DNA of 41,892 nt from a virus (IMGVR_UViG_3300028423_000450:1-41892); one strand, 5' to 3'; numbered from the stretch's first letter, positions 9,163-32,030 are shown. The notes: a model not told the origin generated them from the letters alone. Numbers and translations: made by a program.

Positions 9163-10272
9163 TTAGTTATACATCTGGGTTGTTAGGTTCCCAGTTGCTA
9201 GCTCAACGATGCTTTCCACACCGTCCTGTTCCTGAGAGGCATATAGTGACCACGTCCCAGGGTCTACCATCCCGATGGTTTTCTGGATGGAATCATAATC
9301 AGCCGTAAAGCTTACGGTCTCGTTTACATCATCAAGTGTAATGTCTGATGCTGGCACAGAGTATGTGGTGCTGCCACCATAATTCTTTAGCTCTACTTTG
9401 GCAGTGTATCCACTGTCTGGAAAAAAGTTACTGAGGTCGAGTCCCAGGCCTTCAGATGACCAAGTAACATCAGAGCCAATGACGGATGTGAGGTCAAAGT
9501 TCTCGTTGGGAGTCAGCTTAGGTGACTTAGGTGAGTAACGACGAGCCCTTGGCCTATCGGCAGAAAATACTTTTGCCTTACGGCGAGCATTGTCTGGGTT
9601 AACCGTCTTTAAAAATAGGTCAATTTCATATAGACCAGTTTTCAACTCATCAATAAATTCTTGGTTATCAATGATTGTGTAAGAAACACCTTGGCGTGAG
9701 ATAGAAGTCACACGCTGAGGAAGCTCACAGTCTTCGTCGCCTGACCACAAGCGAGCGAACTCCAAAGCCAGTTTGCGAGCGGCCATCTTGCCAGCAACGG
9801 GCACAGGAGTTCCATAGGAATATGTGACCTCGGTGTTGCAAGGTGTCCAGGGCGTACCAGCACGAACATGCAATGTTGACTTGTCAACAAGATAGTAACT
9901 GCTTGGGTCAAGTATCTTACCAATGCGGTTACGTACAGCGTGAACCTTGGTTACAGGTCCGCCGCGAAGTTTAATTCTAGAGTCAGGCGATAGTCCGTCT
10001 GAGGTTAGTTCTGAATACTCATCGTAGTCAGAAGCTGGGATGTTGTAAACGTCACCACCAAACAAAACGGGACTGTTTGTTTTCTCTGATGGTCCCATTC
10101 GGTTGTTTCGAAGAGTACAAATGTATCGCTCGGTAACAGTGGTGACACCAGTGTACTTGCGACCTGACATTGCCCAAAGAAGGTTTGACGCTACCTGAAC
10201 AGCTTCGTCGGCGTATTCGGTGAAACCGTAATTCCCCAGCTCTTCTGCTGTAATCCACAAATTACTTGCCAT
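9163..10272 (-). CDS. Head-to-tail connector (adaptor) protein with extra C-terminal beta domain
   Basis: 369 residues. The first 230 residues have the connector signature: an N-terminal helical segment with A-D-E-A-V-Q-V-A-S-N-L-L-W-A-M-S-G-R, a W-T-P-C-N-T-E-V-T-Y-S-Y-G-T-P-V-P strand, then A-A-R-K-L-A-L-E-F-A-R-L-W and L-P-Q-R-V-T-S-I-S-R-Q-G-V-S-Y, ending with P-D-N-A-R-R-K-A-K-V-F-S. This family binds the portal and prepares it for the tail. Residues about 250-369 are a beta-rich extra domain not expected in the adaptor, perhaps surface exposed. AGGAAGAG precedes the start. The gene comes after the major tail protein, a less usual order. Confidence 0.78.
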   Translation of the reverse strand: MASNLWITAEELGNYGFTEYADEAVQVASNLLWAMSGRKYTGVTTVTERYICTLRNNRMGPSEKTNSPVLFGGDVYNIPASDYDEYSELTSDGLSPDSRIKLRGGPVTKVHAVRNRIGKILDPSSYYLVDKSTLHVRAGTPWTPCNTEVTYSYGTPVPVAGKMAARKLALEFARLWSGDEDCELPQRVTSISRQGVSYTIIDNQEFIDELKTGLYEIDLFLKTVNPDNARRKAKVFSADRPRARRYSPKSPKLTPNENFDLTSVIGSDVTWSSEGLGLDLSNFFPDSGYTAKVELKNYGGSTTYSVPASDITLDDVNETVSFTADYDSIQKTIGMVDPGTWSLYASQEQDGVESIVELATGNLTTQMYN

Positions 10273-14919: not shown

Positions 14920-17900
14920 TTAGTTGAGCAGACGGAGTAATTTACTCATCTCAGACTGGACTTCACCCTGTGAGAACAAGTCTCCGCCAGACATGTAGCT
15001 TTGCAGCTTCTGAGTAGCAACGTCGGCGTCTTCTTTACCAATCTTTGATTTGACTCGGTCAATCATTCCTTCCATGAGGTCACGAAGGCCGGAAGGCAAG
15101 TCGCTGTATTTAATTTTCTCAGCATCTTTACCAAATGGTAGAGGTAGATTAGATATGGCTTTACCTAGCTCGGCCGCTGTTGCACGTACATTTCCAAGAG
15201 CCTCGGGGTTAAGTGCCTTTGCATCTAGTCTGTCTAACATAACCAGGAGGTCACTACTTGCATTAGCTGAGCGTATATAGTCTCCTGCAAAGTCTAGATT
15301 CTCTGCTTCTTCTACCTTTTTCAATGCTTTTTGTAAACCAGAAGCTCCGAGGTCTTGCTTTAGTCTTGCGAGGACCTTTCGATACTTGCCTTTGGCGTCG
15401 CGTGGCTGATTAACGCCGGAGATGTATTTCTGACGACCCTCTTCTTTATCGTATCCGCCACCCCGGCGCTCAGCTTTTTTTGAATCAGCTTCTTCCTGCT
15501 CTTCAGCTTCCTTTTTTGCCTTTTCTAATTCTTCAATATCTTTCTCGGTGGGCTCTTCCTCTGCAAACTCGGCAGAAGCAGTAATACCCCACTCTTCGGG
15601 AATTAGGTCTGTTTTGTCTAAAGCACGGGCACGCTTAACAATGTGCTTCTTTGCTTTTTCGATATCTTTAGCGCGCCCGTGGGCCTGGATTGCATCCTTT
15701 AGGTCGCTAAGAGCAGTTACAGCCTCAGATTTCATAACAGCAAAGAAGCTTGCGCCCGCAGCAACAAGTGCTAGGACCTTACCGGAAGCCACCATCGCAC
15801 GCGCGATTGGAAATCCTGGAACGTTTACCTGACAAACAGCAACCAGTTCGAGTGAGCCACCAATTGGACGCCAGTCGCCTGATGGAGCAGAAGCGCGAAG
15901 GGCCCTAACCTGAGACTCCTCAATTTCTGGGCGGAGTGAGCCAGAGACCCAAATACCGAACTCGTCTTCACCTGCGTGTACATCTGCAATTGCTGATGCG
16001 GTGTCGTCATAGTGCTTTGCAGCCTCTTCTGCACTTGCACTTAACGGAGCGTGCCCGCCTGCCAAGGTCAACTGACCAACTGGAACATCCTTACCTGCAT
16101 CGGTGTGAACAACTCCAGTGTGGAAGTATGCATACTTGCTGCGAGAGCGAGGTGGCTTAGTTGAGCGCGGTAGGCCAATGTGGCTAACGTGCCACGCAGC
16201 GATGTGACCGTAGATGCGACCACTAGGGTCTACGGTTAGTGGGGTTGGCTTAGTTAGCTGAGGGTTCTCGAACCACTCCTGAGGGGGAGTTACTGGAATC
16301 TCGCCCTCCAAATAACCAGATGCGGTAATCGGCTCTACATCCGAAAATTCTTCTATGGACTCTTCATAGAGCCCGTCTTGTGGGGTCACGTCGTCCTCCT
16401 GGTCCCCGAAGTTTTGAATAGCAATAGTGCATTCTTGGAATGCAGGCTTAGCTACAATTGTAGCAGCCATAACCCTGGCCTTATTTATAACCAGCTTGTC
16501 CTTACCCATTTCGTCGCCCTCGGCGTTCTCGGATTTCTCTTCTTTCGCTTCGAACTGGTCTAAGTCGGCAGATACACCACGCAAGAATCCGTGCCTTACC
16601 ATGCGCTCTGCCTCGCGACCATAGGGCCCGGTATCAAACACACCGTAGGTTTTAATCTGCCATAGTAAGGGGACTGGCAAATCACGGATACCAATTGCTC
16701 CCTTTTTAAATTTACGGCCATCGCCTGATTCGGCTTCTTCAGGGATGACGAGAGGAATGTAAAACTTGGAACCTTCGCCTTTTTTGATTGCACTTGCTTG
16801 TAGTGCAATCTTCTGTCTAGCGTCTTCTGCCCTAGCTTTTAACTCGCTCTGCCTAATAACTTTTGCATCCAAGTCCTCCACTGAGTTGAACATTGCAGAA
16901 GCAGCTAAAGGACTCTTCTTTCCAACGTTATATTTGCTTCCGGTGTATACGCCAGTCATTTCTTTGTGGCGAAGCTGGCAGTATCCCTTTGCGCGTGGAC
17001 CCATGTACTTAGACAAATAACGAACGCAGCGGGTCCAGTCGCCAGGGGTATTCCACATAATCTTGGCACCGCCAATACCACGAGTCCAATATCGTCGAAG
17101 TTTTTCTGCCCCACCGCGGTTTCGGTCTAAGCCTCCGGCTGCAACGATGGCGTCAACATTTCTTACCCAGTAAGAAAGCAGAGCGGCTGATGCAGTGACA
17201 GTCTCGCTATCTACCTGCTTTAAGACATCGTTCAACACCTTCTTATCATCTAGCTCTACAACAGGTGGTGGAGTAGCTGACTTTAGGTCCGACAAAATTT
17301 GGTCGTTGCGAACCCACTTGCCTTCTTTTCTCTCATATACAACAGGAGCTGTGGTTTCTTCTGTTTCGGGAACGATTGCAACTAAATCCATAACTGCAGA
17401 CAAATCATCTGGAGATACAATTGCTAGATACTTAGCTGGTATGTCGGTATTTTCCGGGTCCTGGACCTGCCCTCCTGCGGATAAAGGCTTAAATTTACTC
17501 CTCTGCTCTGCTACCCATGAATCCCAGTTATTAATTAACTTGTTAAAGTCTGACTGTTCCATCGGGGGGTAGGTGCCAGGTAAGTGAGCCTTAGGCATTG
17601 ATTTAGGGGTCCTAGGTTCTCCTAAGATGCCTGAAGTATCTAGTGGTGCATCTACTTTGGGAACTCTTCTAGGACCCTCAACGTCTTCCTCCGCTTGAGT
17701 GTATTTAGCATCAACTTCGATTTCTTTTCCAGAGTCAAGCCTTACACCGACCATTCCAGTCTTAGAGTTAACCTTAGTTATTACTCCGGAACCCCGGTCC
17801 TTATCTCCGCCAACCACGGTGCGCGCCCCAGTGGAAACAAATTTGCCGCCGGCATCTCTAGGTTGATTTAGAGCTTTTTCTGAACGCTCCTCAGGAGTGT

Positions 17901-18930
17901 AGTTGCCGTCTTGGTCTGTTACGGGTTCACCCGCAGCCAACATAACAGTGTCAATCATGTCAAAATCTTCTTCAGCAAGCCCAGCTTGCATAAGAAGAGT
18001 TTCTTCAAGGTCAATATCTTCTAGCAAAACATAGTCAAAGGGCCGTTCCTGTAAATATGCAGAGACAACCACAGCTGCTGAAGGGTCAATAAGGACGTGA
18101 GTCTTTTCAACTGTGTCATATGGTTCGTCTAAAGTTTTATCATAAAAGTAAATGTCACTATCAACGTGTCCTAGGTCATCCCAGGCGCAGTCATCCCAGA
18201 TGTAGACGCGGCCGTCAATGTCAATTTTGTATAGGCGGTCGATACCAGAGCCATCTAAGCGAATGCGAGCCATAAACTCTGGCCCGACGTTCATATCTAG
18301 CTCATGCGCAAGCTTAAAATCATTTAATTCAGCTTCATATGAATCGTGGCTGTAGTAGTCTTCATAGCCAGAAGCGGTCTTTGCTTCTTTCTTGTCTTCG
18401 CGCTCAACGATAGCAGTCGCCCAACGCTGTCCGGCATCACCTCCCCACAGAGCCCAGGCAATACGACCTGCGGACGGGAACCCGTCTTCACCGTATTCGT
18501 AGCCTTTGGCTTTCTTATCTACTTCATGGCGGGGAAAGTATTTAGCAATGTGGCGAATTTTTTCAATGCCAATTTGACCACCCTTAGCCAAACGACGAGC
18601 AGTGCTATAGCCGACTCGGGTACCACCTCGACCATGCTCTTTGCGCCATTTAAGGCCCTTCTTAGCTTCCTTCTGAACCCCACCAGGAATGGTATACATA
18701 GAGCTACCGGACGCAGTTATAGGGGGGTTGATGGTAGATAGAGCAGCCAAAGCTAGCTCTTCTGTAGTCGAGTTTAGAGATGAGTTATCTGGGCTAGCCT
18801 CAACAGAAAATTTTAGTAAATCATGCTGTGAAAAATCTTCTACTAGATTGTTTTCAATGTGAACTGCTGCAAACTTTCCATCTTTTTCGAAAAGCGCCAG
18901 TCCCTTGTTTGTACCAATGAAGTTAATCAT
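14920..18930 (-). CDS. Capsid maturation protease polyprotein
   Basis: 1336 residues in several blocks. Residues 81-172 hold a conserved phage domain (G-V-Q-K-E-A-K-K-G-L, H-G-R-G-G-T-R-V-G, K-I-R-H-I-A-K-Y-F-P-R-H, G-R-I-A-W-A-L-W-G-G). Residues 590-665 hold a second (R-N-R-G-G-A-E-K-L-R-R-Y-W, G-D-W-T-R-C-V-R-Y-L-S-K-Y-M). Residues 720-840 look like the prohead serine protease (H-G-F-L-R-G-V-S-A-D-L at 780-790 supplying His and Ser, then K-A-R-V-M-A-A-T-I-V-A-K-P-A-F). Residues 895-1060 carry the domain typical of actinophage capsid proteases (G-H-I-A-A-W, Y-A-Y-F-H-T-G, G-G-H-A, G-E-D-E-F-G-I-W-V-S-G). NQPRD motifs occur at 355 and 1174. [VI]TAS[GA] motifs at 71, 578, 868 and 1116, and TASG at 185, fall at domain edges and may be self-cleavage sites. 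The start overlaps the previous gene by 8 bases. Confidence 0.85.
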   Translation of the reverse strand: MINFIGTNKGLALFEKDGKFAAVHIENNLVEDFSQHDLLKFSVEASPDNSSLNSTTEELALAALSTINPPITASGSSMYTIPGGVQKEAKKGLKWRKEHGRGGTRVGYSTARRLAKGGQIGIEKIRHIAKYFPRHEVDKKAKGYEYGEDGFPSAGRIAWALWGGDAGQRWATAIVEREDKKEAKTASGYEDYYSHDSYEAELNDFKLAHELDMNVGPEFMARIRLDGSGIDRLYKIDIDGRVYIWDDCAWDDLGHVDSDIYFYDKTLDEPYDTVEKTHVLIDPSAAVVVSAYLQERPFDYVLLEDIDLEETLLMQAGLAEEDFDMIDTVMLAAGEPVTDQDGNYTPEERSEKALNQPRDAGGKFVSTGARTVVGGDKDRGSGVITKVNSKTGMVGVRLDSGKEIEVDAKYTQAEEDVEGPRRVPKVDAPLDTSGILGEPRTPKSMPKAHLPGTYPPMEQSDFNKLINNWDSWVAEQRSKFKPLSAGGQVQDPENTDIPAKYLAIVSPDDLSAVMDLVAIVPETEETTAPVVYERKEGKWVRNDQILSDLKSATPPPVVELDDKKVLNDVLKQVDSETVTASAALLSYWVRNVDAIVAAGGLDRNRGGAEKLRRYWTRGIGGAKIMWNTPGDWTRCVRYLSKYMGPRAKGYCQLRHKEMTGVYTGSKYNVGKKSPLAASAMFNSVEDLDAKVIRQSELKARAEDARQKIALQASAIKKGEGSKFYIPLVIPEEAESGDGRKFKKGAIGIRDLPVPLLWQIKTYGVFDTGPYGREAERMVRHGFLRGVSADLDQFEAKEEKSENAEGDEMGKDKLVINKARVMAATIVAKPAFQECTIAIQNFGDQEDDVTPQDGLYEESIEEFSDVEPITASGYLEGEIPVTPPQEWFENPQLTKPTPLTVDPSGRIYGHIAAWHVSHIGLPRSTKPPRSRSKYAYFHTGVVHTDAGKDVPVGQLTLAGGHAPLSASAEEAAKHYDDTASAIADVHAGEDEFGIWVSGSLRPEIEESQVRALRASAPSGDWRPIGGSLELVAVCQVNVPGFPIARAMVASGKVLALVAAGASFFAVMKSEAVTALSDLKDAIQAHGRAKDIEKAKKHIVKRARALDKTDLIPEEWGITASAEFAEEEPTEKDIEELEKAKKEAEEQEEADSKKAERRGGGYDKEEGRQKYISGVNQPRDAKGKYRKVLARLKQDLGASGLQKALKKVEEAENLDFAGDYIRSANASSDLLVMLDRLDAKALNPEALGNVRATAAELGKAISNLPLPFGKDAEKIKYSDLPSGLRDLMEGMIDRVKSKIGKEDADVATQKLQSYMSGGDLFSQGEVQSEMSKLLRLLN

Positions 18931-19305: not shown

Positions 19306-19656
19306 CTAGTTTACCACTTCGGAGCCATCTTCAAGAGTGCTAGAGCCTCTCCCGAGGCCCAGGGAAGCCAAAGAAGGTCGCTCTCCTTCAATCTCTATCT
19401 TTGAGTCAGCATACATAGTGTGTAGTAAAAACATGGTTGTATTTAAGTCTGTCAATGTTGTTGGTAGATAAGGACCCTCTGGTGTAGCGGGAAAATTTTC
19501 GCCGTACTCGTCTATAAGTACTCCAATTAGAGACCTTATTACTTGCTCTTGAGCGTTTGCAGTGAAGTCGTCTTTATCAGCTAATAGTCCCATGTCGGGG
19601 GTCCACTCAAAAGACATGTCATCTATTTCGAAGGCTACGGGTTCTGTATACTCCAT
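19306..19656 (-). CDS. Hypothetical head-module protein
   Basis: 116 residues, acidic. It starts within the stop codon of the giant polyvalent gene (TAATG), so its translation is probably coupled to it. It contains E-P-V-A-F-E-I-D-D-M-S-F-E-W-T, followed by a helical stretch Q-V-I-R-S-L-I-G-V-L-I-D-E-Y-G. No family recognised and no catalytic motif seen. Confidence 0.7.
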   Translation of the reverse strand: MEYTEPVAFEIDDMSFEWTPDMGLLADKDDFTANAQEQVIRSLIGVLIDEYGENFPATPEGPYLPTTLTDLNTTMFLLHTMYADSKIEIEGERPSLASLGLGRGSSTLEDGSEVVN

Positions 19657-22600
19657 TACTCAGCCTTTCTTCCTGCCGCTAGTATCAGACCAATCATGAA
19701 GTTTACTGCATCTTGGTCAAAAGAATCAACCGGACGCCCTACCTCATAGACAATGTTAAGTGGGTTTGTATATGCAGCATCTTCATACCATTTGCCATCC
19801 TCGGGGTTGTAATATCCCTTTTTCATATTCAGTGAGGGGACTACTCCACTTTCTGATTCTGGCTCTCGATAGATTACAGCTTTACCGTTTTCATCTCTAC
19901 CAACAGCGTGTCTACCTCTACCTCTAATAAACAAATCGTTTTCTGTACCAAAGATGCTTTCAAACATAGTAGTTCCTAATTCATTAGCATTCTCTTGTGG
20001 GTTATTGATTAGATTTGGGTTTTTTCTTTGATACGTTTTACTGCTATAGGGATTACTCATGTCGGTAACCAAACCAAATTCTTTATTATATCCAGGTAGC
20101 TTCTTAAAGTCAAAAAACTCATTGCCATCAGCGTCAACTTTGCGAGCACGGTCAAAAAGGTATGCTGTCTCTGCCGTAGATATATCTGGATTTGTTCTTT
20201 GTATAAAGTGCCATAGTTCGTGAAGTGCGTTGCTTCCATGCACTCCTTGAACACCACTAGATTCTTCAGGGAATAGGGTTTTACCTTTATTAGCAAGTCG
20301 GAGCGAGTACTGGTTGTCTTCATACTCTCCAAAATGCCCTCTACCGTCGTTGGACTTGGAAACTCTAATAATTCTTCCTTCTGACTCTAAATTTGCTTGC
20401 ATTTGTTGAATTAGAGAGCGGGGTATAAACTGCAACGCATCATCTATTGACTTTTTAAATGAGCTACTGCTTTTTAAATCTACGTCCATTTGAGGAGAAA
20501 GCTCCCCAAATGGTCTCTTTAGCTGCTTTAAATATTTATCAAGATTTAAAACATTGAACTCTACTCCAAGTTCTTCCAGCTCTTCCTTGATAGAGTTTCG
20601 GAACAAGTTAGAAAGCTCTTGTTGTTTATTTGCTAACTGTTCGGAAGCTTTCCTATACTTTTTTTCGGGACCCGTGGAAGGGCCTGGTCTGTTTGCCGAT
20701 TGTGTATATTCTCTCCGAGCACTTTCTTTTGCTTCTGATAATGCAAAGACTTCTTTTTGAAGTTTATCTACCTTATCGCCATATTTTTCATCGAATCGTT
20801 TTACTGCTTTGTTATATACATCTTCTCCCCCGGCTTTTAATACTTCTACCTTTTGCTTAGCTTCATCAGTTGGACGAACTACACCTTTTGTCTTGTTGCC
20901 TTTGATAGGAGCAACTGCATCACCAAAGGTTCCTTCACGAATCTGAGCGCTAGCATCATCAGGGGAAACTCTAGAAATTGATTGAGAGCCAGGATTTAGC
21001 CTAGATACATCAGCAGAAGCGCCAGTTTCTCCACCTGAGGTCTGTTTTGGTCTAGGGGTGCTTTTATATACTTGCGCTTTACTATACAGGTCTCGGTATT
21101 TAGTAACTAATTCTTCGAACTCTGCTGCTGTTATTTCGCCATCTATGGCTTTCTTAACTTGACTCTCTATATCTCTTTTTTCTTCAGTATCTTCAAAGTA
21201 GTCTGTTCTAAACCTTAATGTGTCATATAGGTCTTCAAGAATAGCTCTTGTATCATCTGATACTGGCTCAGAGGGTTTGTAAGGAATAGTTTTCTTTGGC
21301 TCTACCTCTTCTGGGTCAAAGTCTGGTAGGTCCTTATCTCTTTCTTCCTCAGTGTTAAATTTAGCTAGTTCTGTCTCAATCTCGTCTAGCTCTTCTTGAG
21401 TACGACCCTCAAAGTCTTTAACTATCTTGTTATCTCCTTTGTGGTAGAAAACGTTATATTTAGGGTCATATCCAATATCTGGTCGTTTAGCAAGACGACG
21501 TAAGGCAAGGTCCTCTTCACGAATCCAGTGAGAATATTCGCCTAGCTCTGAACTCTGGTCGTCAGATAGCTTCATATTGTTTGTATTTAGAGCCTCAGGT
21601 AGTTTCTTACCTTTAAACTCGACCTCGGCATAGTCCGAGAAGGTGTATTTACCATCATTTGGATTTTCTACAGCCCTTAGAGCAGTAATTCTTCCTCTAG
21701 AGACCTGCCCCTCGTTATTGGTCCACTCAACGATATCTCCAACAGCCAGCTGCTTGTTATCACGGTCTACATGTGTGACCATTGGCCTAGAAGCGTCTGT
21801 ACCCCTTCCACCTGAAATCCTGCTCTTAACACTAGACAAGAATGCAGACATCTGCTCTTCATTGGCATTGGGGAATTTCTCTCGCATGGAGTTTTCCATG
21901 AAAGCATATGCCCGCTCCTTTTGCTCTGGGGTGTTGGGCAGCGTTCCTACGTAACTAGCAAAAAGACGGGCAGCAGCTTCTTGGTCACCTTCGTCAAAAG
22001 CCTTGTAGAAAGAGGGTACCTCGCCGCGGCGTTGCTGCCAAAATAGATTGTCATCTGTATTCAGCTGCTGATTACGACCACTAAGCATGATGAGCGCATG
22101 CTCTTCGGGAGTACGTAGCTTCAGGTCAGTATCGTTCTTACCAGTCTCGGCGATGTTTTCAGCATTTGCCTTGCGGAGTCTTTTAATGCCTCCATAAGCA
22201 CCGCCATATAAACGACGCTCTTTTTCTGGGTTATCAGCTAAATCAAATTCTTCATCTGGGCGCTCAATGTATTTATTGAGCAGATTTTCTATGCCTCGGC
22301 TCTGCTGAGCCTTGCCGCCAACTCCAACTAGGGCGGCAAAAGAGTTTCTTGGGCTGTAGTGAATGTATTGCTCTTCACGACCGTCAATATCAACATCAAA
22401 GACCAACATCATTTTTTTGTCGTCGGTTTCTTTGACCTTAATCTGTACTGTAACATCTTTGCCCTTTGCAGGACCTTCTTCGTCTTTATAAGTCTTCCTG
22501 TGAACAACAATAGAGCCGTCTGAAGCTATGCGAGAGTCAGGGTAAAATTCAAGAAGCTTAGCCTTCATGTCTTCAGGTGAACCAGTACCCTTAGCTTCTT

Positions 22601-25600
22601 GAATATCCTCGGCCTTAAATGGAGTTCTGTCGATAGTAGTGCCGCCATCATCAAAACGAACTAAGTCCTCGGGTATAAGTCCAGCAGGAGTTGGCTCAAA
22701 ACCGTCGGGAACATTGGTGTAAATATCATCTTCTGCATCTACATCCGCCTGAGGAGCAGGTGTTTCTACTTCTTCTACGTCCTCGAGTTCTTTCTCATAG
22801 TCATCTTCGGTTTCGGTGGCATCACGCTCGAGTTCCTGACGGCGACGCTCATCCTCTTCTCGGCGACGACGCTCATCCTCAAGCTCGCGCCTTACTCTTT
22901 CGTCTACATCGTCCAAGTCGTCCATAGGAATTGGCGTAGCCCTCCGGCGCTCAGGAGGAAGAACATCGTCTCCGGTTTTCTTTACACGAGATAGCCTTGC
23001 AGCAACAGCAGCCGGTGGAACATCGCCGTCCTCAACTGCATCTTGGAATCGGTCGTTCCTAGCAACCTGGTCCACTAAAACGTCAAAGAGAGCGGGGTCC
23101 TGGTCTCTGTTTTTGTATATATCTATGTACCTTGATATTGAACCATCTTCGTCATAAGGCTCAAAGAACTCTCTAAGCCTCTCGATATTACGGTCATCTG
23201 AAGCGCTAACCCTGTTAGGGAAATCTGCCTCGAGCTCTTCCCATGAATCGTACTTAGTTGTTCCAATATCCGGGTTAGTTCTTGGACGCAGAGTTATAGT
23301 TCCATCTTTATTCTGCTTAACGTTCCAACGCTCACCGTTGACATACTTCGAGTAAGTTCCGTTCTGAGTTTCAGTCCATGTCTCGACAAAAGTAGGTGTC
23401 TTTGTATATTGAACAGGCAAAGAGTCTTCTGGCACATTGTCTGCACGCAAGTCCTCTACTAGCTTTTCCGCGTCTTCCTTTTCTTGTTCAGGAGTAGCTT
23501 TCTTCTCGGGAGTACGTGCATCTACTGGCTCATCTTTGGCGTAAGTAATCTTTTTGTCCGAACCATCGTGCTCAACGCTAACTACATCTATGCCACTCTT
23601 GGTGCGACCTTTCTTGACGTTGGTCGCGGTTCCGATTGGATTTCCTTCCTCGTCATAAAGTTCGTCGCCAACCTTAATGTCTGCAGCTGTTTTTGTAGGT
23701 GTTGCCTTTTTCTTGGGCGCGGGGGTTTCCGGGGCTGGTGTTGGCTTTTCTGCGACCGGAGTTGTCTCTTCTTGGCGTTCTGGTTCTCCGAACTCTAGTC
23801 GAGATACTCTGTTTCCCTTACGGAAAGTCTTTTCGTAGACGTCGCCGGCTTCGTCTGTACCAATTAGAAGAACTTCGTCGTTCTCTAGACCTTCGCTGTC
23901 TTCGAGACGAACGTTCTTGCCGGTGTCTGGGTCTACAAAGAATGTATCTTCGTCTGGGTCCAAGTCTTCAACAGCAGTCCTACGTGTAGTGCGAACAGGA
24001 CGGTCAAAGTCGCTTGGTTCATCATCTACCTCTAGGTCAGGGGCGTCAATATCATCGTCATCAAAATCAAACTCATCGTCATCAAGCATGTCCGCTGGAG
24101 AGAAGGTAGCCTCTTTGAGCTCTGGCATATTCCAAGCTTCTGCACCAACATCTGGGTCACGGTCCATAGCATTGTTAGCCGGTTCAACTCCGTCTTTGCC
24201 CTGGAAATCCCTTAGCCAAGCTAGCTTACCTAAAGCCATCTTTTCTCTTGCTCTGGTAACAGCAACATAAATAGTACGCAGCTCTTCTAGTGAAGGCATT
24301 TTTGTTTCAGTTTTAGTGCCGCCGTCTTCGCCGCCCTCGGTAATTGCTTCCTTAGGTTCAGGGAAGTCTTCACCGATAATTACGTTGTCGGCTTCTAGAC
24401 CCTTCATCCGGTGAGTGGTTGTAATCCGGACGTCGTAAGTTGGGTCCTCTTCCTCCCGAGGCTTCATTCCTTCTGGAATCCTATTAGAGATTTCGGTCAG
24501 AAGTCCAGCCCTTTGCTCATCATCAGCATTAGGCATGTATTTGTTCCAGAACTTGCCTTCTCTATTCCACCTAAAACCTTTTTCTTTTAGGAGGCTTTTG
24601 AAGTCAGTGTCTGCATCTATTTTGGCTGAAGCTCCTTGGAAGTCTCCGTAAACCTCAATGTTGCCATCATCACTAATTCTGTAGTTTTGTAGCGCCCCGT
24701 TGCTATCCAGCAGTGTGGCCTCTTCACCAACAGTACCTGTTATATCTTTAGAGATTAGGTTAGATGTACCGGAGTCGTCGTCCTTTAGAACTTTCAAGTT
24801 TGGTAAAACGTTTTCTTCTACTTCTTGTAGACCTTTTTCCCAATCATTGTTGCCGATTTTATTTAGTAGGTCTATCCACTTTGCAGCACGAGAATCTTTA
24901 TCAATCGCAATAAGGTCTCTCACGTCTTTCATGGTGCGGAGACCAGCAAAGTCTTCGCTATCTGCATCCCTACCGTCAGGAGTTTTAGGTGAGGGGCCTC
25001 TAGAGTCAAAATCAGTGTCTTTCAACCACTTCAAGGTGTAGATAGCTTTTTCTAGGTCGTTCTTAAATACTGGTAGTACTCCTACACTACGACCCTCTTC
25101 CAACTGCCTCTGAATTTCGCCCAAGCCTCCGGCATTTGAACGTACAATAATAACCGTGTCCTCGTCAGGACCAAAGGGGATTGAGTCACGGTCAACAATT
25201 TCTCCGCCCTCGCCGACTCCACGGACCCTTGCGTCAGCACCAAGAAGGTTTAGGGCGGCATTAGAAGGACCTGCTAGTTCTGGTCCAAATCTTCTCACCA
25301 TTGTAAGCGGTAGCTCTACATCTGCATCTTTACTTGCATTCTTCAGAGCATTGACAGCTCCACGCCATTCGTAGATGGCTTGGTTTGGGTCACCAACGTG
25401 AACTATCTGAACATTTTTTTGATTTTTTACAACAGAGGCAACAGCAGCATTTGTGTCCTGAGCTTCGTCGAAGAAAACAACGTCAACTTTTTTACCGTTA
25501 ACCTCATACTCGCTGAGGTCAGGGTCACTCAAGGACCACATTTTTACAGCGTGGTCATGCTTTATTCTTACGCGCTTACCCTCGTACTTGCCTGTCTCCT

Positions 25601-27329
25601 TGTTAAACTTTGGGTTAGAGCCGCGCTGGACGTCTTTCCAGTAGTCATTTGCATAGTCCAAAAGCTTTTGAACAACCTTGTTGTCCGGCATAAGGTCTGG
25701 CTTATCTTCTGGACGATACTTAGCTACTGCCGCAAGTACGTGCTTGCGTTTAATTTCTTTGTCATCGCTGTTAGAGAATCGGCCGACAATTTTGTCAACG
25801 ATATTTGCCACGGTAGGTGATGTTATGTTTTCACCAAACAAAGGCATTTCATCGTAGCCTTTTAGTTTTGCAATAGCTTTATCGCCAGAAGCAACAAAAC
25901 CTTTCCTACCATTCATGGCGGCTTTTTGGTCTTTAGTTAGTTCTTGGTAGGCAAGAGAGTTGGTTGTTCGAGCCATCGTGTTTTGCTTAGGCATACGCTT
26001 CTCTGCCTCAAGCTGATTCTTTTTATTGAACTGCAGTGACAGTACACGGGACTCAGGTCGTTCACGGTTAAGGGCCTTTGCGGCTGCAACAAGGGTAGTT
26101 GTTTTACCGGAACCTGCTAGGGCGTTTACTACTGTTCTGTATCCTCCACGGACAATAGCGTTTAGAGCGTTTGTCTGCTCTTGGCTAGGAGTAAATCCAC
26201 CAAAATCTTCTACATACTCGTCGGGAGTACCTAGTGCTTCAATCTCAGAAACAGGAATCTTGTCCTGAGCCTCTTCGGGCTCTTCGTAATTCTGCTCGGC
26301 TTTTTCTTTTTCTTCCGCATTATCTTCAGTGGGTTGCTCAAGGGGCCTAGCTGGCTCTTCGGGATAGACCTTTGGCTCGTCGTCTTCGAAAATAATCTCG
26401 TCGTCGTCGTCCAGATTTAGCGGGGACTGATTTACATCTTTTAGCTTAGGTGCTTCTTCCCTAGCCTTTTCTGCTTCTAAATCTCTAAAGGGTGTCTTGT
26501 CAAACTCGTCTACCACCTCTAGCGGGCTGCCTGGTACAGTGTCAGAAACTTCACGTCTAATTTGCTTGTTGGTTAGGGGCTTTCCAACTTGCTTACCGGT
26601 TTTGTTGGAGGCTTTATACCATTTCCCATCTTCGCCCTTTATAAATCTTTTCCAGTCTCCTTCTGTTCCACTTGGTCCTTTTTCCCTAACCTTAGTTCCT
26701 TTAGGCAGGTTCAAAAAGTCTTTCAGGTCTCGAAGGCCGTCGGAGAAGGATTTCTTGGGTTTGGCGGAATCTTCTACAATGTCTGAAACTTTTTCGCCAG
26801 TCTTTGCCTGCTCGGCAAGGGCTGGTGGGAGCTTAGCTAGAGGCTCTGCCTCGCGCTCTTTGCGGAACTCTGCATCTTCTTCATCGGTAAGCTCGCCAAG
26901 AGCCATTTCTTTATCTAGCTCAGAAGCTTTGGTAATGTTTAGGTCCTCAATGTTTTGAGGTCTATCAGCAACATCTTCGGGAAGGTCGTGTGCTACATCC
27001 GGGTCAATACCTTTTCTGCGAAGAAAGTCTTTATCAATCTGAGCTGTAAGTAGCTCACCGTTGGAAGAATTTACTTCGAGAACATCACCCTCTTTAATCC
27101 CGTAGTCGGAGAAATCATTGTTGGTTACATAAGCGCGAATCTTTGTTCCATCATCATTACCACCAATTGCACGGAGGTTATTGACATTTACGTTTTCACG
27201 CTTTTTAGATTTACCCTTAAAGGCACCAATAGCGGCACGCAGTCGTGCACCAGTGGTTACCCAACGGCCCTTTTTATCTCGGGGTTGCTTTCGAGCGTTT
27301 ATGCTTCGCTCTAATGAGGTATAAGCCAT
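19656..27329 (-). CDS. Giant polyvalent protein: SF1 (UvrD/Rep-type) helicase plus HExxH zincin
   Basis: 2557 residues, by far the largest gene here. Residues 14-23 carry K-Q-P-R-D-K-K-G-R-W, a motif shared with the capsid protease. Residues about 375-1035 form a superfamily 1 helicase: Walker A A-G-S-G-K-T (405-410), Walker B D-E-A-Q-D (621-625), G-D-P-N-Q-A-I-Y-E-W-R-G (646-657), T-H-R-M-K-G-L-E (972-979) and V-A-V-T-R-A-R-E-K (1022-1030). A small insert at 911-932 has K-G-F-R-W-N-x-E-G-K-F-W. Long acidic linkers and an R/E coiled coil (1475-1520) follow. Near the C-terminus H-E-L-W-H (2370-2374) is a zinc-metallopeptidase motif, with N-A-N-E-L-G (2447) a possible third ligand. Helicase plus zincin in one head-region protein matches the 'polyvalent protein' class thought to enter the cell with the DNA. 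GAGGA precedes the ATG. Packaging is inferred from position. Confidence 0.85.
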   Translation of the reverse strand: MAYTSLERSINARKQPRDKKGRWVTTGARLRAAIGAFKGKSKKRENVNVNNLRAIGGNDDGTKIRAYVTNNDFSDYGIKEGDVLEVNSSNGELLTAQIDKDFLRRKGIDPDVAHDLPEDVADRPQNIEDLNITKASELDKEMALGELTDEEDAEFRKEREAEPLAKLPPALAEQAKTGEKVSDIVEDSAKPKKSFSDGLRDLKDFLNLPKGTKVREKGPSGTEGDWKRFIKGEDGKWYKASNKTGKQVGKPLTNKQIRREVSDTVPGSPLEVVDEFDKTPFRDLEAEKAREEAPKLKDVNQSPLNLDDDDEIIFEDDEPKVYPEEPARPLEQPTEDNAEEKEKAEQNYEEPEEAQDKIPVSEIEALGTPDEYVEDFGGFTPSQEQTNALNAIVRGGYRTVVNALAGSGKTTTLVAAAKALNRERPESRVLSLQFNKKNQLEAEKRMPKQNTMARTTNSLAYQELTKDQKAAMNGRKGFVASGDKAIAKLKGYDEMPLFGENITSPTVANIVDKIVGRFSNSDDKEIKRKHVLAAVAKYRPEDKPDLMPDNKVVQKLLDYANDYWKDVQRGSNPKFNKETGKYEGKRVRIKHDHAVKMWSLSDPDLSEYEVNGKKVDVVFFDEAQDTNAAVASVVKNQKNVQIVHVGDPNQAIYEWRGAVNALKNASKDADVELPLTMVRRFGPELAGPSNAALNLLGADARVRGVGEGGEIVDRDSIPFGPDEDTVIIVRSNAGGLGEIQRQLEEGRSVGVLPVFKNDLEKAIYTLKWLKDTDFDSRGPSPKTPDGRDADSEDFAGLRTMKDVRDLIAIDKDSRAAKWIDLLNKIGNNDWEKGLQEVEENVLPNLKVLKDDDSGTSNLISKDITGTVGEEATLLDSNGALQNYRISDDGNIEVYGDFQGASAKIDADTDFKSLLKEKGFRWNREGKFWNKYMPNADDEQRAGLLTEISNRIPEGMKPREEEDPTYDVRITTTHRMKGLEADNVIIGEDFPEPKEAITEGGEDGGTKTETKMPSLEELRTIYVAVTRAREKMALGKLAWLRDFQGKDGVEPANNAMDRDPDVGAEAWNMPELKEATFSPADMLDDDEFDFDDDDIDAPDLEVDDEPSDFDRPVRTTRRTAVEDLDPDEDTFFVDPDTGKNVRLEDSEGLENDEVLLIGTDEAGDVYEKTFRKGNRVSRLEFGEPERQEETTPVAEKPTPAPETPAPKKKATPTKTAADIKVGDELYDEEGNPIGTATNVKKGRTKSGIDVVSVEHDGSDKKITYAKDEPVDARTPEKKATPEQEKEDAEKLVEDLRADNVPEDSLPVQYTKTPTFVETWTETQNGTYSKYVNGERWNVKQNKDGTITLRPRTNPDIGTTKYDSWEELEADFPNRVSASDDRNIERLREFFEPYDEDGSISRYIDIYKNRDQDPALFDVLVDQVARNDRFQDAVEDGDVPPAAVAARLSRVKKTGDDVLPPERRRATPIPMDDLDDVDERVRRELEDERRRREEDERRRQELERDATETEDDYEKELEDVEEVETPAPQADVDAEDDIYTNVPDGFEPTPAGLIPEDLVRFDDGGTTIDRTPFKAEDIQEAKGTGSPEDMKAKLLEFYPDSRIASDGSIVVHRKTYKDEEGPAKGKDVTVQIKVKETDDKKMMLVFDVDIDGREEQYIHYSPRNSFAALVGVGGKAQQSRGIENLLNKYIERPDEEFDLADNPEKERRLYGGAYGGIKRLRKANAENIAETGKNDTDLKLRTPEEHALIMLSGRNQQLNTDDNLFWQQRRGEVPSFYKAFDEGDQEAAARLFASYVGTLPNTPEQKERAYAFMENSMREKFPNANEEQMSAFLSSVKSRISGGRGTDASRPMVTHVDRDNKQLAVGDIVEWTNNEGQVSRGRITALRAVENPNDGKYTFSDYAEVEFKGKKLPEALNTNNMKLSDDQSSELGEYSHWIREEDLALRRLAKRPDIGYDPKYNVFYHKGDNKIVKDFEGRTQEELDEIETELAKFNTEEERDKDLPDFDPEEVEPKKTIPYKPSEPVSDDTRAILEDLYDTLRFRTDYFEDTEEKRDIESQVKKAIDGEITAAEFEELVTKYRDLYSKAQVYKSTPRPKQTSGGETGASADVSRLNPGSQSISRVSPDDASAQIREGTFGDAVAPIKGNKTKGVVRPTDEAKQKVEVLKAGGEDVYNKAVKRFDEKYGDKVDKLQKEVFALSEAKESARREYTQSANRPGPSTGPEKKYRKASEQLANKQQELSNLFRNSIKEELEELGVEFNVLNLDKYLKQLKRPFGELSPQMDVDLKSSSSFKKSIDDALQFIPRSLIQQMQANLESEGRIIRVSKSNDGRGHFGEYEDNQYSLRLANKGKTLFPEESSGVQGVHGSNALHELWHFIQRTNPDISTAETAYLFDRARKVDADGNEFFDFKKLPGYNKEFGLVTDMSNPYSSKTYQRKNPNLINNPQENANELGTTMFESIFGTENDLFIRGRGRHAVGRDENGKAVIYREPESESGVVPSLNMKKGYYNPEDGKWYEDAAYTNPLNIVYEVGRPVDSFDQDAVNFMIGLILAAGRKAE

Positions 27330-27406: not shown

Positions 27407-27952
27407 TTAAATGTAGAGGTCAATATCATTGATGTGGTCGACAATTTCGCTAAATCTTGCCCAGCGGAATTTTTGCCTGTCGGTTGGCACTTCCACATCA
27501 TCGCGAGTTAGGTAGTCTTTAGAATCATTTACCCAGGCTGGAACTTCGTCTAAGGCATTAAATATTTCCGTGGCGGTACCTTTGTTTAGGGCAAGGTCAG
27601 CAGCTTTTTTAGCATCAGGGTATTTTGATAAAAGTACCTTAGCGGTCTCTTCCCGCAAACTAGGTGCATTCTCTGGATTTTCAAGATTTTCCAAAGTTTC
27701 ATAAAAATCAGCAAAACCGTCAATCATGTATTTTTCCATGGGGTCATCAGTTTCAGGATTTTTCATCTTTTCAACATAAACATTAAAAGTTGACATTTTT
27801 TCGAGCTCTTCTTTAATTCGCTCTTTTGTCTCTCCTCGAGCCGCCATACGGGTTATCGTCCCCCGGGGGTCAAACAGCTCTTCGCCAGTAACTGGAGACG
27901 TCTGTGTAGACAGTGCTCCAATAAAATCCATGCGACTTTCTTTATAGGTCAT
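27407..27952 (-). CDS. Hypothetical protein, head module
   Basis: 181 residues when started at the ATG at 27952, which overlaps the stop of the preceding gene and has AGAAGG nine bases upstream. A TTG seven codons earlier is open but has no such signal. The protein is charged and helical, with a Y-V-E-K-M-K-N-P-E-T-D-D-P-M-E-K-Y-M stretch and an acidic end. No family recognised. The overlap with both neighbours places it in the portal-to-polyvalent operon. Confidence 0.7.
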   Translation of the reverse strand: MTYKESRMDFIGALSTQTSPVTGEELFDPRGTITRMAARGETKERIKEELEKMSTFNVYVEKMKNPETDDPMEKYMIDGFADFYETLENLENPENAPSLREETAKVLLSKYPDAKKAADLALNKGTATEIFNALDEVPAWVNDSKDYLTRDDVEVPTDRQKFRWARFSEIVDHINDIDLYI

Positions 27953-28415
27953 CTTCAGCAGCCTTCTTTTCAAGTTCTATAACTAAATTATACAGTCCCT
28001 CAGAAATTTGTCCAGTCTCCCTGAGTATCTCCAGACGCTTCCAAGCGTGAATGTTAGAGAAATCGTCTAGTTGTTGGTCAACCGCTGAGGCGATTAATGC
28101 AACTTTATTTTCGTCTAAATATGATTTGTTGCTAAGCCAAGCCAACTTCCCCTCTACTGTTGACTGGTTGTGGAGGTAATCATCAGAAAACAAATCTAAG
28201 TCTCTTGTGTACTCAAAATTTTCACCTATTTGGGCCAGCACAAAATCAGTAGCGCGGTCTAAGGCCTTCTGTTCGTCATCAGATACTTGCAGCTCTCTAT
28301 ACGCAACTTCTTGGACGCCACTAAACATAATTGGCTCATCTACGGGCAATGACTCATTGGCAACTGCCACTACTGAAGCTAGGTTCTTATATAGCTGTCT
28401 GTGCTCTCTATTCAT
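27942..28415 (-). CDS. Hypothetical protein, head module
   Basis: 157 residues when started at the ATG at 28415. A longer reading to 28559 is open, but it would overlap the upstream gene by about 150 bases and its extra residues look unlike protein. The chosen start overlaps the upstream gene by 8 bases, like the other couplings here. The protein is acidic and helical (D-E-Q-K-A-L-D-R-A-T-D-F-V-L-A-Q-I-G). No family recognised. Confidence 0.7.
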   Translation of the reverse strand: MNREHRQLYKNLASVVAVANESLPVDEPIMFSGVQEVAYRELQVSDDEQKALDRATDFVLAQIGENFEYTRDLDLFSDDYLHNQSTVEGKLAWLSNKSYLDENKVALIASAVDQQLDDFSNIHAWKRLEILRETGQISEGLYNLVIELEKKAAEDDL

Positions 28416-29643
28416 CCGCAAAGTCGGGCTCCTTAGGTAGTAGGTCTGCGTCGGGGCTGTCATACAGAGCAGTTGCAAGTAGTGCTGCTCGCTTAATTGG
28501 GTCCTCACCTCTAGTATTTGCTCGCATATATGCAGCTCTGAGTGCAGGTAGCACTTCATAGCTGAGGTCAGAGAACTCGGCTAATTCAAGTAGAGCGTGT
28601 TCATGGGACTCGTAGTAGCTGGCAGGCTTGAGCTCGATGAATGTTTGCTCTGTTGCAAGGGCAGCTGCGGTGATTGAATTGTTCTTTTTTGAAGACCTCT
28701 TGTGCGCTGCTGGTAGGAGGTCGTTATCAGTGACGTACTTTTTATTCTTCGGGCGACCGTTACGGAGTAGATAAAGGAAGGCATTAACGCGCGCCATCGC
28801 CCACGAGTTTCTATTCTGGTCAGGCCTGTGAGAGGTAGAGAAAGCACCAGCACCACGACGATAAACCGCTTTAAGTGTCCTAAGAGTGGTCTTCTTGCTC
28901 TTGGCGTCGCCATGTTTTTCGTTATGCTCCTTTACTTTGTTCTCTAAGGCTTTTGTGACCTTCTTCGAAAACTTAATTTTCTTTCCGCCTGCGGCCGAGC
29001 CCTTTTTGTTCTTCTTAGACCCCTTACGACGCTCACTAGGTGCGGCAGGCTTTGAGCCAGCAGTAGCAGTAACGCTAACCATTCCATCGGGGATAATCGC
29101 GAACCTGCACTTACCTTCTTCTTCAACCTGCTCTGCAATGATTGAGCATACGCCCCCACCCTGGTAGAGAACGCAGTTGCCACACTTGACGCCGATATCC
29201 TTGACTTCGTTTTCCCGAGGGGTTTCGTATCCGGCCCAGATTCCGGTTTCATCTTCGTTGAATTTTCCATAAGTATCTGCAATCGTCTTTAGTGACTCGG
29301 CTAGGTCTGCTTCTTCCTTCACAAGTTTGCCGACAGGACCCTTTGGCTCCCCGCCTTCGTCGTGTTCGGCGTCGTCACGCATGATGGAGCCGTCTGGCAT
29401 GTAGTGCCAGCCTTCAAACTCTGGCATGTCTTCAGCTGCGGCTGCAACAGTTGCATCAACAGGGACGCAGTTGGGGACCATCTTGCCACCCTTGCCTTTT
29501 TTCATACCTACCTGCTTGTAGCCCTCCCAACAGGGGTCATCGCTAGCTAGCTCGGCGTCGTACTCTTCATCTTTAATGTATGTTTCTGCGGGGGCGGCGT
29601 GACCACCCGTAGCGTTAATAGTATTATCAATGTTCTCAGGCAT
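28408..29643 (-). CDS. Head-module protein with conserved phage domains
   Basis: 411 residues; its start overlaps the portal stop (TAATG). Several blocks recur in phage head-region proteins. D-P-C-W-E-G-Y-K-Q-V-G-M-K-K-G-K-G-G lies at about 36-53. A cysteine block C-G-N-C-V-L-Y then G-G-V-C-S is near 155-170 and might bind metal or iron-sulphur. A basic lysine-rich region is at 205-260. The block F-S-T-S-H-R-P then N-S-W-A-M-A-R-V-N-A-F-L and Y-V-T-D-N-D-L-L-P is at about 270-315. Residues 9-18 (I-N-A-T-G-G-H-A-A-P) resemble residues 409-418 of the major capsid protein, so the N-terminus may be cleaved by the same protease. The basic middle suggests nucleic acid contact. I expect a packaged or assembly protein; the role is unknown. 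Confidence 0.7.
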   Translation of the reverse strand: MPENIDNTINATGGHAAPAETYIKDEEYDAELASDDPCWEGYKQVGMKKGKGGKMVPNCVPVDATVAAAAEDMPEFEGWHYMPDGSIMRDDAEHDEGGEPKGPVGKLVKEEADLAESLKTIADTYGKFNEDETGIWAGYETPRENEVKDIGVKCGNCVLYQGGGVCSIIAEQVEEEGKCRFAIIPDGMVSVTATAGSKPAAPSERRKGSKKNKKGSAAGGKKIKFSKKVTKALENKVKEHNEKHGDAKSKKTTLRTLKAVYRRGAGAFSTSHRPDQNRNSWAMARVNAFLYLLRNGRPKNKKYVTDNDLLPAAHKRSSKKNNSITAAALATEQTFIELKPASYYESHEHALLELAEFSDLSYEVLPALRAAYMRANTRGEDPIKRAALLATALYDSPDADLLPKEPDFADE

Positions 29644-31394
29644 TATCCCTCAGGCTCTGCTAATCCAGGTGGTGCTTCTTCTTCTTCTGTCTCTGTGTTT
29701 TCAGGTGTCGTTGGAGCGGCGGGGGCTTCAGATAGAAGGTCATCTATCTCGTCGGGAATGGGGGCGCCGGTGGCTTCTTGTGCCTCCTCCGTAATCTTAT
29801 TCATCACGTCTGGGGCAACAACTCTAAGTAGCGCCTCTGTGAGCTCAGGGGTGAGGGCACCCTTTTGAACCAGTAGGCGGAGGCTAAGCTCGTTGGGGTC
29901 TGGAGCGTCCTGGTCGGAAAAACCGTGAGCACGACGCCAGGTGTTGTAAGAGACTGCCATCTTGTCAAATCCGGCATCAGCATCTGAAGCGCGGTCGTTA
30001 CGGGTAGCGACCTGACTTGGGTCGTACCAAACGCATAGGCGGTTTACTTCTTGTTCCGAGTAGCCATTAGCGATTAGGTATGGACGCAAATACATAACTG
30101 TCAAGGAGTCGGCAATAAGCAACATTAGCGGCTCGATGTGTGCTTTGTAGAGGCTCTCGTCAATCTGTAGGGCGTTCGAGTACTTAACGTTGGCAAGACC
30201 AGACACCACGTCCTTGGGGACGTCTAGGCCCTGCATGATGCGCTCTAGGACCCTCTCTGACCTCTCGGCTAGTGCTGGGTCGAAGGAGCGCTCAAACTTA
30301 AACTGCTTAATCTTATCGCCAAGTTCGGCTGGACCACGAATAATCAGTGGAACGACGGCGCTCGCAGAGTCCTCGTCCTTAATCGGGGTGGTCATGGCAT
30401 CTATCAGCTGGTCTTCGAATTCATCTGCCGCCTCTTCTGGGTTGTACTGCTCGTTGTAGTCCCCTTCTTCGTCGTATGGATAGTCAGGGTCAGGTGAAGC
30501 AGCGACAGAGAGACCGTCAGGAAGGTAAAGAGCACCAGCATTGAGGCGAGAGCGAGCAGTTGCACGGAAAGTCCTATTCAGTAGAAGAAGTTCTGCACAC
30601 AAGTCAAGTAGTCCTCTCAACGATGAGTCTGATTCTTGTGTGTAGCGTGGGTGAGCCCGCCATACGCGACCAACAAAGGCATTTTTTGGTAGCTTAATGT
30701 TGTCAGCACTACCAGCAGACATGCTTGTAGCGTTTCCTGACTCTCGGCGGGGGTTGAGGATGTAGTTTCCGCGTGCATCTATCTGCAGCTCATCTACGGA
30801 ACGGATATCCCATGATTCAGGTAGGCCAGAACCAATGCGTTCTGGAATCTGAACAAGGTAACACTCACCAGTAACTTGCAAGTTAAGAGCGGCGTCTTTT
30901 AAAAGACCTGGCTGACCTCCGTAAGCAGAACTTAGACGGTCAAGGGCGCGCTCCGCCGCGGCTGCTAGCCGGGGGTCTACGGACTCTGATGTACGTACTG
31001 GTGAAGGGGCTTCGGCTGGATTGTCTACAACTGCAGAGTAAAGGCGGATACGAGAAACAACGGACGCAACTAGGTTAAAGGCGTACTTAATTTCACCGAT
31101 AGCGTCGTAATACTCCCAAGCTTCGGTCTGCCAAGCAGTAGACGCTGACTGACGACGGGCTTTAAAATATTCTGCCTCGGTTTTGTCATCCAACTTGACC
31201 TGAGCTGCAGCAGCAGTCATTGGTCGAGGAGTGTTGAATACAGCTGGCTCTGCGTAAACTACGCCAAACGAGTCAACAGACACTCCTGGAGCTACCTGAG
31301 TGCGGTTGTTCGGCGAAGAAGCACTTGCAGTAGTGGTTCTTCTCTGTCTTTGTGACTCGGTGTTTGTTTTCGAGTCTTTCTTAAAAATTCCCAA
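29643..31394 (-). CDS. Portal protein
   Basis: 583 residues, starting at a TTG with AGGA about eight bases upstream. It follows the terminase by two small genes and precedes the head genes, the usual portal position. Typical features are W-Q-T-E-A-W-E-Y-Y-D-A-I-G-E-I-K-Y-A-F-N in the N-terminal wing, the central Y-L-V-Q-I-P-E-R-I-G, V-G-R-V-W-R-A-H-P-R-Y, the stem region R-V-L-E-R-I-M-Q-G-L-D-V-P-K-D-V-V-S-G and the helical L-M-L-L-I-A-D-S-L-T. The last 50 residues are acidic and disordered (P-E-N-T-E-T-E-E-E-E). It forms the dodecameric ring through which DNA is pumped. The N-terminus contains T-T-A-S-A-S, close to the motif seen in other head proteins. Confidence 0.9.
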   Translation of the reverse strand: MGIFKKDSKTNTESQRQRRTTTASASSPNNRTQVAPGVSVDSFGVVYAEPAVFNTPRPMTAAAAQVKLDDKTEAEYFKARRQSASTAWQTEAWEYYDAIGEIKYAFNLVASVVSRIRLYSAVVDNPAEAPSPVRTSESVDPRLAAAAERALDRLSSAYGGQPGLLKDAALNLQVTGECYLVQIPERIGSGLPESWDIRSVDELQIDARGNYILNPRRESGNATSMSAGSADNIKLPKNAFVGRVWRAHPRYTQESDSSLRGLLDLCAELLLLNRTFRATARSRLNAGALYLPDGLSVAASPDPDYPYDEEGDYNEQYNPEEAADEFEDQLIDAMTTPIKDEDSASAVVPLIIRGPAELGDKIKQFKFERSFDPALAERSERVLERIMQGLDVPKDVVSGLANVKYSNALQIDESLYKAHIEPLMLLIADSLTVMYLRPYLIANGYSEQEVNRLCVWYDPSQVATRNDRASDADAGFDKMAVSYNTWRRAHGFSDQDAPDPNELSLRLLVQKGALTPELTEALLRVVAPDVMNKITEEAQEATGAPIPDEIDDLLSEAPAAPTTPENTETEEEEAPPGLAEPEG

Positions 31395-31697: not shown

Positions 31698-32030
31698 TTA
31701 GCCTCTCAGTCGTTTTAACGTCTTATATGGGTTCCAGCCTCTCAGACGTGAACCACATCCGCAAGCCCGGTTTTCGTTAAAAACTATCATTTTTCCGCTT
31801 TTTGTGTAAATTGTGGAATTTTCTTCTGGATTTTTAGAAATGTCAGAAATGCTATATTCTTCGAAAAATATGACTTTTGCATCATATTTGTCGTCTACAG
31901 CCACCAAAATGCGTTTTTCGTGCAAAATCACCCTTGCGCCTTCAAAAAAGGCCTTTTCGCCTTGGTCTTGATATTTTTCATCGGCGAAGGTTACGTCACA
32001 AGGAAAGCGGTCTACGTCGATTAAATTCAC
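31698..32030 (-). CDS. Conserved phage protein next to terminase
   Basis: 110 residues from a GTG that overlaps the terminase stop (TAGTG). The first 85 residues are beta-rich and mixed charge; the end, A-C-G-C-G-S-R-L-R-G-W-N-P-Y, is a signature I associate with a small protein following the large terminase in actinophages. The C-G-C-G motif could bind metal. Role unknown. Confidence 0.72.
   Translation of the reverse strand: MNLIDVDRFPCDVTFADEKYQDQGEKAFFEGARVILHEKRILVAVDDKYDAKVIFFEEYSISDISKNPEENSTIYTKSGKMIVFNENRACGCGSRLRGWNPYKTLKRLRG

Follow-up and report, generated by a model that had tools for sequence, protein, structure and literature searches.

Organisation of the giant protein and its locus

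The subject of this analysis is a giant gene in a 41,892-base virus record of the IMG/VR database (IMGVR_UViG_3300028423_000450), the whole of which is called the window here. The open reading frame (ORF) at positions 19656–27329 encodes 2557 residues. Its limits in the initial annotation are exact, running from ATG to TAA with no internal stop, and the strand (minus), which was not given there, is added here. That annotation had described a polyvalent protein carrying a superfamily 1 (SF1) helicase and an HExxH peptidase, encoded between the portal and capsid genes. Our analysis agrees with this description, as unrelated enzyme domains are joined in one polypeptide encoded among virion genes, which fits the account of such proteins in PMC5512222. 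By its organisation and position the giant protein is, as judged from its sequence, a phage polyvalent protein, and homologues of the same architecture exist. Of its two enzymes, the helicase is certain and the peptidase probable.

Pfam and PHROGs matches of the neighbouring genes confirm the gene order. In the direction of transcription, the genes are those of the terminase, the portal protein, three small-to-medium proteins, the giant protein, two small proteins, a capsid-protease-type protein, the major capsid protein and neck/tail proteins. The terminase large subunit (32030–33442; Pfam Terminase_6N, 5e-24), the portal protein (29643–31394; PHROG 776, 2e-107), the 1336-residue capsid-protease-type protein (14920–18930; PHROGs 859/18402) and the major capsid protein (12577–14784) are all encoded on the minus strand. 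Actinomycetia phage DSL-LC01 has the best relative of the major capsid protein (70% identity), and its counterpart of the capsid-protease-type protein has a weak match to Peptidase_S78.

The helicase is an optional insert

The UvrD-type SF1 helicase spans residues 375–1078 (24096–26207, minus strand). It matches Pfam UvrD-helicase (5e-17, residues 385–661) and UvrD_C (8e-9), and PHROG 1967 DNA helicase at 1e-64 across residues 379–1032. The earlier assignment to SF1 is well founded, since Walker A, the DExx box and motifs III–VI are all intact. Motifs I, II (DEAQDT), III, IV, V and VI are intact in all seven sequences compared, namely the window protein, four homologues and the proteins of the cultured phages Mimi and Atuin. 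The closest solved sequence relative is FBH1 (F-box DNA helicase 1; E 2.6e-53), of which the helicase part alone matches, followed by Rep, PcrA and UvrD. These relatives suggest that the window helicase may be a 3'-5' translocase able to displace DNA-bound proteins.

Two relatives, L018 and L182, possess a peptidase of the window type and lack the helicase. L018 is close to the window (portal 86% and capsid 81% identity) and retains the rest of the protein. The portal tree places it, with full support, as the sister of a pair formed by the window and L016, and the helicase is therefore a module that has been gained or lost; its presence and absence require at least three changes on well-supported branches. 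On this sequence evidence the helicase is an optional insert in a head-module carrier. In the full-length homologues it is accompanied by a 'mid' region (residues 1340–1450; 22980–23312, minus strand), which is probably related to the helical domain of a small upstream gene (27407–27973, minus strand) through a helical motif of about 52 residues (hhalign probability 94.8%). BLAST alone found no relation between the two, which only profiles revealed.

An ordinary replication helicase that had become joined to adjacent genes by chance, and is not packaged, would account for the kinship to common UvrD helicases of phages and for the fact that the copy in the giant gene is the sole such copy in Mimi and Atuin. 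However, the helicase always lies within a head-module carrier, behind its N-terminal module, and is missing from close relatives such as L018 whose carriers otherwise persist. We regard this explanation as very unlikely and have dropped it for these reasons.

The N-terminal module as a candidate head-targeting tag

Residues 1–200 (26730–27329, minus strand) form an N-terminal module (N-module), in which a Q-x-R-D-x-x-G-x-W motif is followed by a predicted SH3/Tudor-like barrel. In the window protein the motif begins with QPRD at residues 15–18 (27276–27287, minus strand), and Q15, R17 and D18 are invariant across 16 aligned sequences. The homologous region of relative L064 is modelled as beta-rich by AlphaFold, and a Foldseek search with the whole L064 model leads to Tudor/SH3 barrels. 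The QPRD sequence had previously been taken as a motif of the capsid protease. The same QPRD does occur, at residues 356 and 1175, in the neighbouring capsid-protease-type protein, but it is not specific to it and belongs to an N-terminal module of several head-module proteins.

A hidden Markov model of the N-module matches 90 ORFs. In the five deposited phage records that were searched whole (Mimi, Atuin, DSL-LC01, Big4 and Pumpernickel), all matches (11/11) fall between the portal and capsid genes. A precedent is found in P1 DarB, a 251-kDa anti-restriction protein of the virion, whose N-terminal 30 residues suffice to send a reporter into heads (PMC9024508). DarB is likewise a large protein with a helicase part, although of the methylase-SF2 type, and it is packaged through its N-terminal signal. 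No consensus among Dar N-termini was found by the authors of that study, whereas a shared N-module is visible in the window group. Because of its confinement to head genes and the DarB precedent, we propose the N-module as a candidate head-targeting tag.

The clearest exception to this confinement is a 481-residue frame (G001:C1:13277-13555, on the contig of L075) located about 100 kb from the head module. On a contig of 160,704 bases (L133/G004), N-module matches form two pairs that resemble each other and lie about 136 kb from one another, as they would if there were two head modules through duplication or chimeric assembly. In some helicase-bearing relatives, a second giant protein with an N-module is located right behind the portal gene (L063:12225-17684, 1819 residues; L068:7733-17153, at least 3140 residues).

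The core and the C-terminal peptidase-like domain

The core, at residues 1541–1980 (21390–22709, minus strand), contains an SH3-like barrel according to the AlphaFold model of the L064 homologue, for which Foldseek (with the model as a whole) returned Tudor/SH3 folds. It is retained in forms that lack the helicase or the fused peptidase and, besides the N-module, is the most widely kept part (78 ORFs). A Pfam scan of the carriers gave nothing useful for it. The profile searches for a helicase, a zincin and any domain in residues 1540–2100 that the initial annotation had called for recovered the helicase, but neither a zincin family nor a named family for the core.

Residues 2228–2551 (19677–20648, minus strand) form a peptidase-like domain of zincin type, delimited by alignment of homologues and by AlphaFold. 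It contains HELWH at residues 2370–2374 (20208–20222, minus strand) and Glu2450 (19980–19982, minus strand), an invariant alignment column and the predicted third zinc ligand. In eight homologous sequences of 24–57% identity, H2370, E2371, H2374 and E2450 are invariant and the W of HELWH varies (W/T/Q). The peptidase motif reported earlier is thus conserved in homologues as HExxH plus a glutamate. In the AlphaFold model of the domain (predicted template modelling score 0.75), HELWH is located on one helix and the glutamate on the next, the order that is described for polyvalent MPTases in a part of PMC5512222. In most other peptidases found at the equivalent gene position the motif takes the form HExxH...EHFAES, and a profile built from these hits solved zincins at 1e-5. 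The window peptidase is probably a divergent clade, for which the label 'zincin' derives from the motif, the helix order and positional equivalence.

A variable payload between portal and protease genes

We collected 160 IMG/VR loci with portal and capsid profiles and eight more, partly on the same contigs, with a peptidase profile; the whole giant protein as a direct query in IMG/VR had found one weak locus. The complete architecture (N-module, helicase, mid region, core and peptidase) is also present in L176 (2591 residues), L178/L179 (2642), L180 (2548) and L183 (2485). A helicase together with HExxH in the same slot, between the portal and protease genes, occurs in five further contigs and in gp77 of the cultured Arthrobacter phage Mimi. 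Mimi gp77 (2709 residues) lies between the portal and the capsid maturation protease, and its helicase is 31% identical. It shares the N-module and the FBH1/UvrD helicase with the window protein and with Atuin gp71. It differs in its C-terminal HEFGH, which is of another subtype, while Atuin gp71 lacks HExxH and has an ADP-ribosyltransferase domain. In neither protein was the core detected. Because these relatives and Mimi gp77 have a helicase and HExxH in the same slot, the giant protein can be considered a variant of the polyvalent-protein theme.

An HExxH ORF is present in 26 of 27 complete portal-to-protease slots, the exception being L031, which has another payload. Of 24 homologous slots, 23 have the motif where composition predicts 0.29, and it is absent from all 256 ORFs for portal, protease and capsid proteins in these loci, so its presence is not due to chance. 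Payloads of other kinds include an ADP-ribosyltransferase in Atuin, Sixama and Forza, and Pfam ArdcN plus MPTase-PolyVal (E 7e-49) in L071. In the same slot of Gordonia phage GMA2, Orf10 (L011:7303-9954), deposited as 'putative structural protein' by authors who carried out mass spectrometry of virions, has a weak 2H/Acb1-like match at its C-terminus.

This near-universal presence of HExxH in the slot raises the possibility that the peptidase is a second head-maturation protease, which acts on scaffold or capsid proteins and need not be injected. Group 1 jumbo phages likewise have a conserved zincin for which a part in maturation has been suggested (PMC7824862). However, a capsid-protease-type gene is already present downstream, the payloads include ADP-ribosyltransferase, ArdC and non-peptidase domains, and the slots of four relatives (Big4, Cece, Pumpernickel and DSL-LC01) showed no HExxH. 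A maturation role is therefore an improbable explanation.

Probable frameshift-borne peptidases in relatives

The evidence for frameshifting concerns relatives, while the window phage has an in-frame version of the gene. Where the peptidase is not fused, its frame is −1 relative to the carrier and overlaps the carrier end, with CCCAAAA or AAAAAAA in phase directly before the carrier stop or one codon ahead of it; this holds for all of the sequences tested first (15/15). In a systematic scan, 46 slot ORFs had a −1 extension and 37 of them the heptamer, as did three carriers filed under 'other', compared with 0/79 portal, 0/80 capsid and 1/80 protease-type ORFs. Carrier bodies have 0.0015 in-phase heptamers per codon, whereas the 770 codons at carrier ends contain 38. 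As counted from contig names, the arrangement is present in 34 distinct contigs. The ArdcN plus MPTase-PolyVal protein of L071 is among the payloads carried in this way.

RNA folding supports the same sites. The 50 nucleotides downstream have a mean z of −2.5, compared with −0.3 upstream and 0.0 after portal and capsid stops (p = 2e-9). RNAalifold on nine sites detected no pair covariation, and the hairpins vary in register and sequence. For 20–125 codons past the shift the −1 frame contains no start codon, so ribosomes must enter it from the carrier. From the shift to the first possible start codon, the ratio of nonsynonymous to synonymous substitution rates (dN/dS) is 0.028, 0.13 and 0.13 over about 100 codons, and 0.29 over 43 codons in a fourth, less informative pair; this part of the frame is under purifying selection. 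Altogether there is strong in silico evidence for −1 programmed frameshifting in the 34 contigs.

Short overlaps of neighbouring genes are common in these genomes and runs of seven A are error-prone, so the separate −1 frames might be thought of as normal genes translated by reinitiation or as products of homopolymer sequencing errors. However, CCCAAAA, which many independent contigs share, is no long homopolymer, the startless frame still evolves as protein where tested, and the downstream RNA structure is specific to the frameshift sites. This explanation appears the least likely of those considered, and a sequencing-error origin has been dropped on these grounds.

The full-length helicase-bearing homologues, like the window, have the peptidase as an in-frame fusion with no slippery site at the gene end. 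In-frame fusion is seen in 6/6 cases with a helicase versus 8/42 without (p 2e-4), but these counts are not independent, and for this reason we claim no link between helicase and fusion. A tblastn search with the L064 carrier found no match among the deposited phages in the collection. The capsid-protease-type ORF of one relative (L107:5103-9239) has an in-phase CCCAAAA near its stop and a −1 extension. The remaining protease family lies downstream at 9380-9883, for which either a second frameshift or an indel may account.

Self-processing or host targets

The peptidase is always coupled to the same carrier, either in cis or through the −1 frame. This opens the possibility that it cuts its own carrier at acidic linkers, before packaging or after injection, and frees the helicase and the core, the frameshift setting the enzyme dose. 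Long acidic linkers are indeed located at residues 1078–1200 and 1450–1540 of the giant protein. Self-processing is stressed in a part of PMC5512222, where host targets are listed as a further possibility. The distribution and evolution of the payload argue against self-processing. The closest full homologue is 74% identical (synonymous sites are saturated), and among the folded domains the peptidase shows the lowest conservation (59%, against 80% for the helicase, 84% for the core and 88% for the N-module). Peptidases have been swapped between very divergent clades, and the frameshift payloads of L031 (8392-9180) and L152, of about 260 residues, have neither HExxH nor a significant Pfam match. 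We consider self-processing a less likely reading, although the most serious of the alternatives. Because the payload evolves fast and is exchanged, host-facing targets are favoured over housekeeping ones, a preference that falls short of proof.

Relation to known systems

The giant protein resembles the polyvalent proteins of PMC5512222 in being a large multidomain protein of a portal/terminase phage that joins unrelated enzymes, a zincin-type peptidase included, and its relative L071 bears formal ArdcN and MPTase-PolyVal domains. The Pfam domains associated with polyvalent proteins (MPTase-PolyVal, ArdcN, LPD), which are usual and not required, are absent from the window protein. A part of PMC5512222 describes UvrD helicases just for conjugative-type actinomycete proteins, the usual helicase being SWI2/SNF2. 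The term 'ribosomal frameshift' has 0 occurrences in its text, and frameshift-attached payloads are unmentioned.

As in the −1 frameshifting of lambda gpG/gpGT and of retroviral Gag-Pol (PMC5009743), the shift comes close to the 3' terminus of an abundant structural-type ORF and would yield a longer minor product. According to a part of PMC5009743, Gag-Pol frameshifting also serves enzyme packaging, while the phage cases described there are tail chaperones and coat/tail extensions rather than enzyme payloads on a head-module carrier. Literature searches found no report of frameshift-attached enzyme payloads like these. As far as checked, three features are apparently undescribed: a UvrD helicase paired with a zincin in the head gene of a phage, the tag that head-module proteins share and, most notably, the frameshift-attached payloads of relatives.

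Origin of the virus

After DSL-LC01, whose genome was assembled from a lake metagenome, the relatives of the major capsid protein are Microbacterium, Arthrobacter and Gordonia phages of 103–195 kb. The window is probably a fragment of a large actinophage-type phage of freshwater-type actinobacteria. A portal-pattern search of 84,980 bacterial species genomes for host inference gave zero relatives, and no tRNA genes were found in the window. Upstream of the terminase, at 37090–37857, lies an endolysin/metallo-endopeptidase-type gene.

A proposed carrier for packaged enzymes

What is read directly from the sequence is the architecture and its conservation, the intact helicase motifs, the invariant HExxH...Glu, the head-module position and purifying selection. 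The explanation that we favour, and hold to be probable as a whole, is that of a head-tagged carrier with helicase and zincin payloads which is packaged and injected, the peptidase being dosed by frameshifting in relatives. In this explanation the carrier would consist of the N-module and the core, with two payloads, a UvrD/FBH1-like helicase inserted behind the N-module and, C-terminally, a zincin-type peptidase. The N-module would guide the carrier to the prohead in the manner of the first 30 residues of P1 DarB, and the giant protein would enter the cell together with the DNA. There, the helicase may translocate on the incoming DNA or displace host recombination or restriction proteins. After delivery, the peptidase could act on host proteins or free domains of its own carrier; we favour the former because payloads differ widely between relatives. 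The initial annotation had the peptidase cut host defence proteins, which may be one of several options. In most relatives, −1 programmed frameshifting would add the peptidase to a fraction of the carriers, as in Gag-Pol, giving few enzyme copies, and in the window phage and the helicase-bearing relatives a fixed in-frame fusion would replace the frameshift.

Several observations weigh against this explanation. Neither CCCAAAA nor AAAAAAA is found as a site in the window gene, and no frameshift site was seen at the gene end in cultured relatives. The frameshift-borne peptidases lack an N-module and could therefore be packaged only if the frameshift is real. For the window peptidase, neither Pfam nor PDB profiles gave a match, Foldseek with its model against PDB and viral libraries returned nothing significant, and hhalign against the EHFAES-type slot zincins aligned the motif only (20 columns, 8% probability).

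We lean slightly towards a more general form of the favoured explanation, a 'frameshift socket' in a large group of actinophages. At the end of a head-module carrier with the shared N-terminal tag, −1 frameshifting would load a minority of carriers with enzymes that can be exchanged, most of them zincins but ArdC-type and other domains as well. A few copies would thus be built into each head and delivered with the DNA, comparable to Gag-Pol and the enzymes of retroviruses; the window protein would be a hard-wired socket plus a helicase. The frameshift sites are short and suited to ordinary reporters, and the cultured phages Mimi and Atuin are open to virion proteomics. Polyvalent proteins would gain a testable delivery grammar, whose elements are a shared head tag, a carrier and a switch for dosage. 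Should the tag prove functional, the N-module alone would allow the injected effectors of actinophages to be recognised from sequence.

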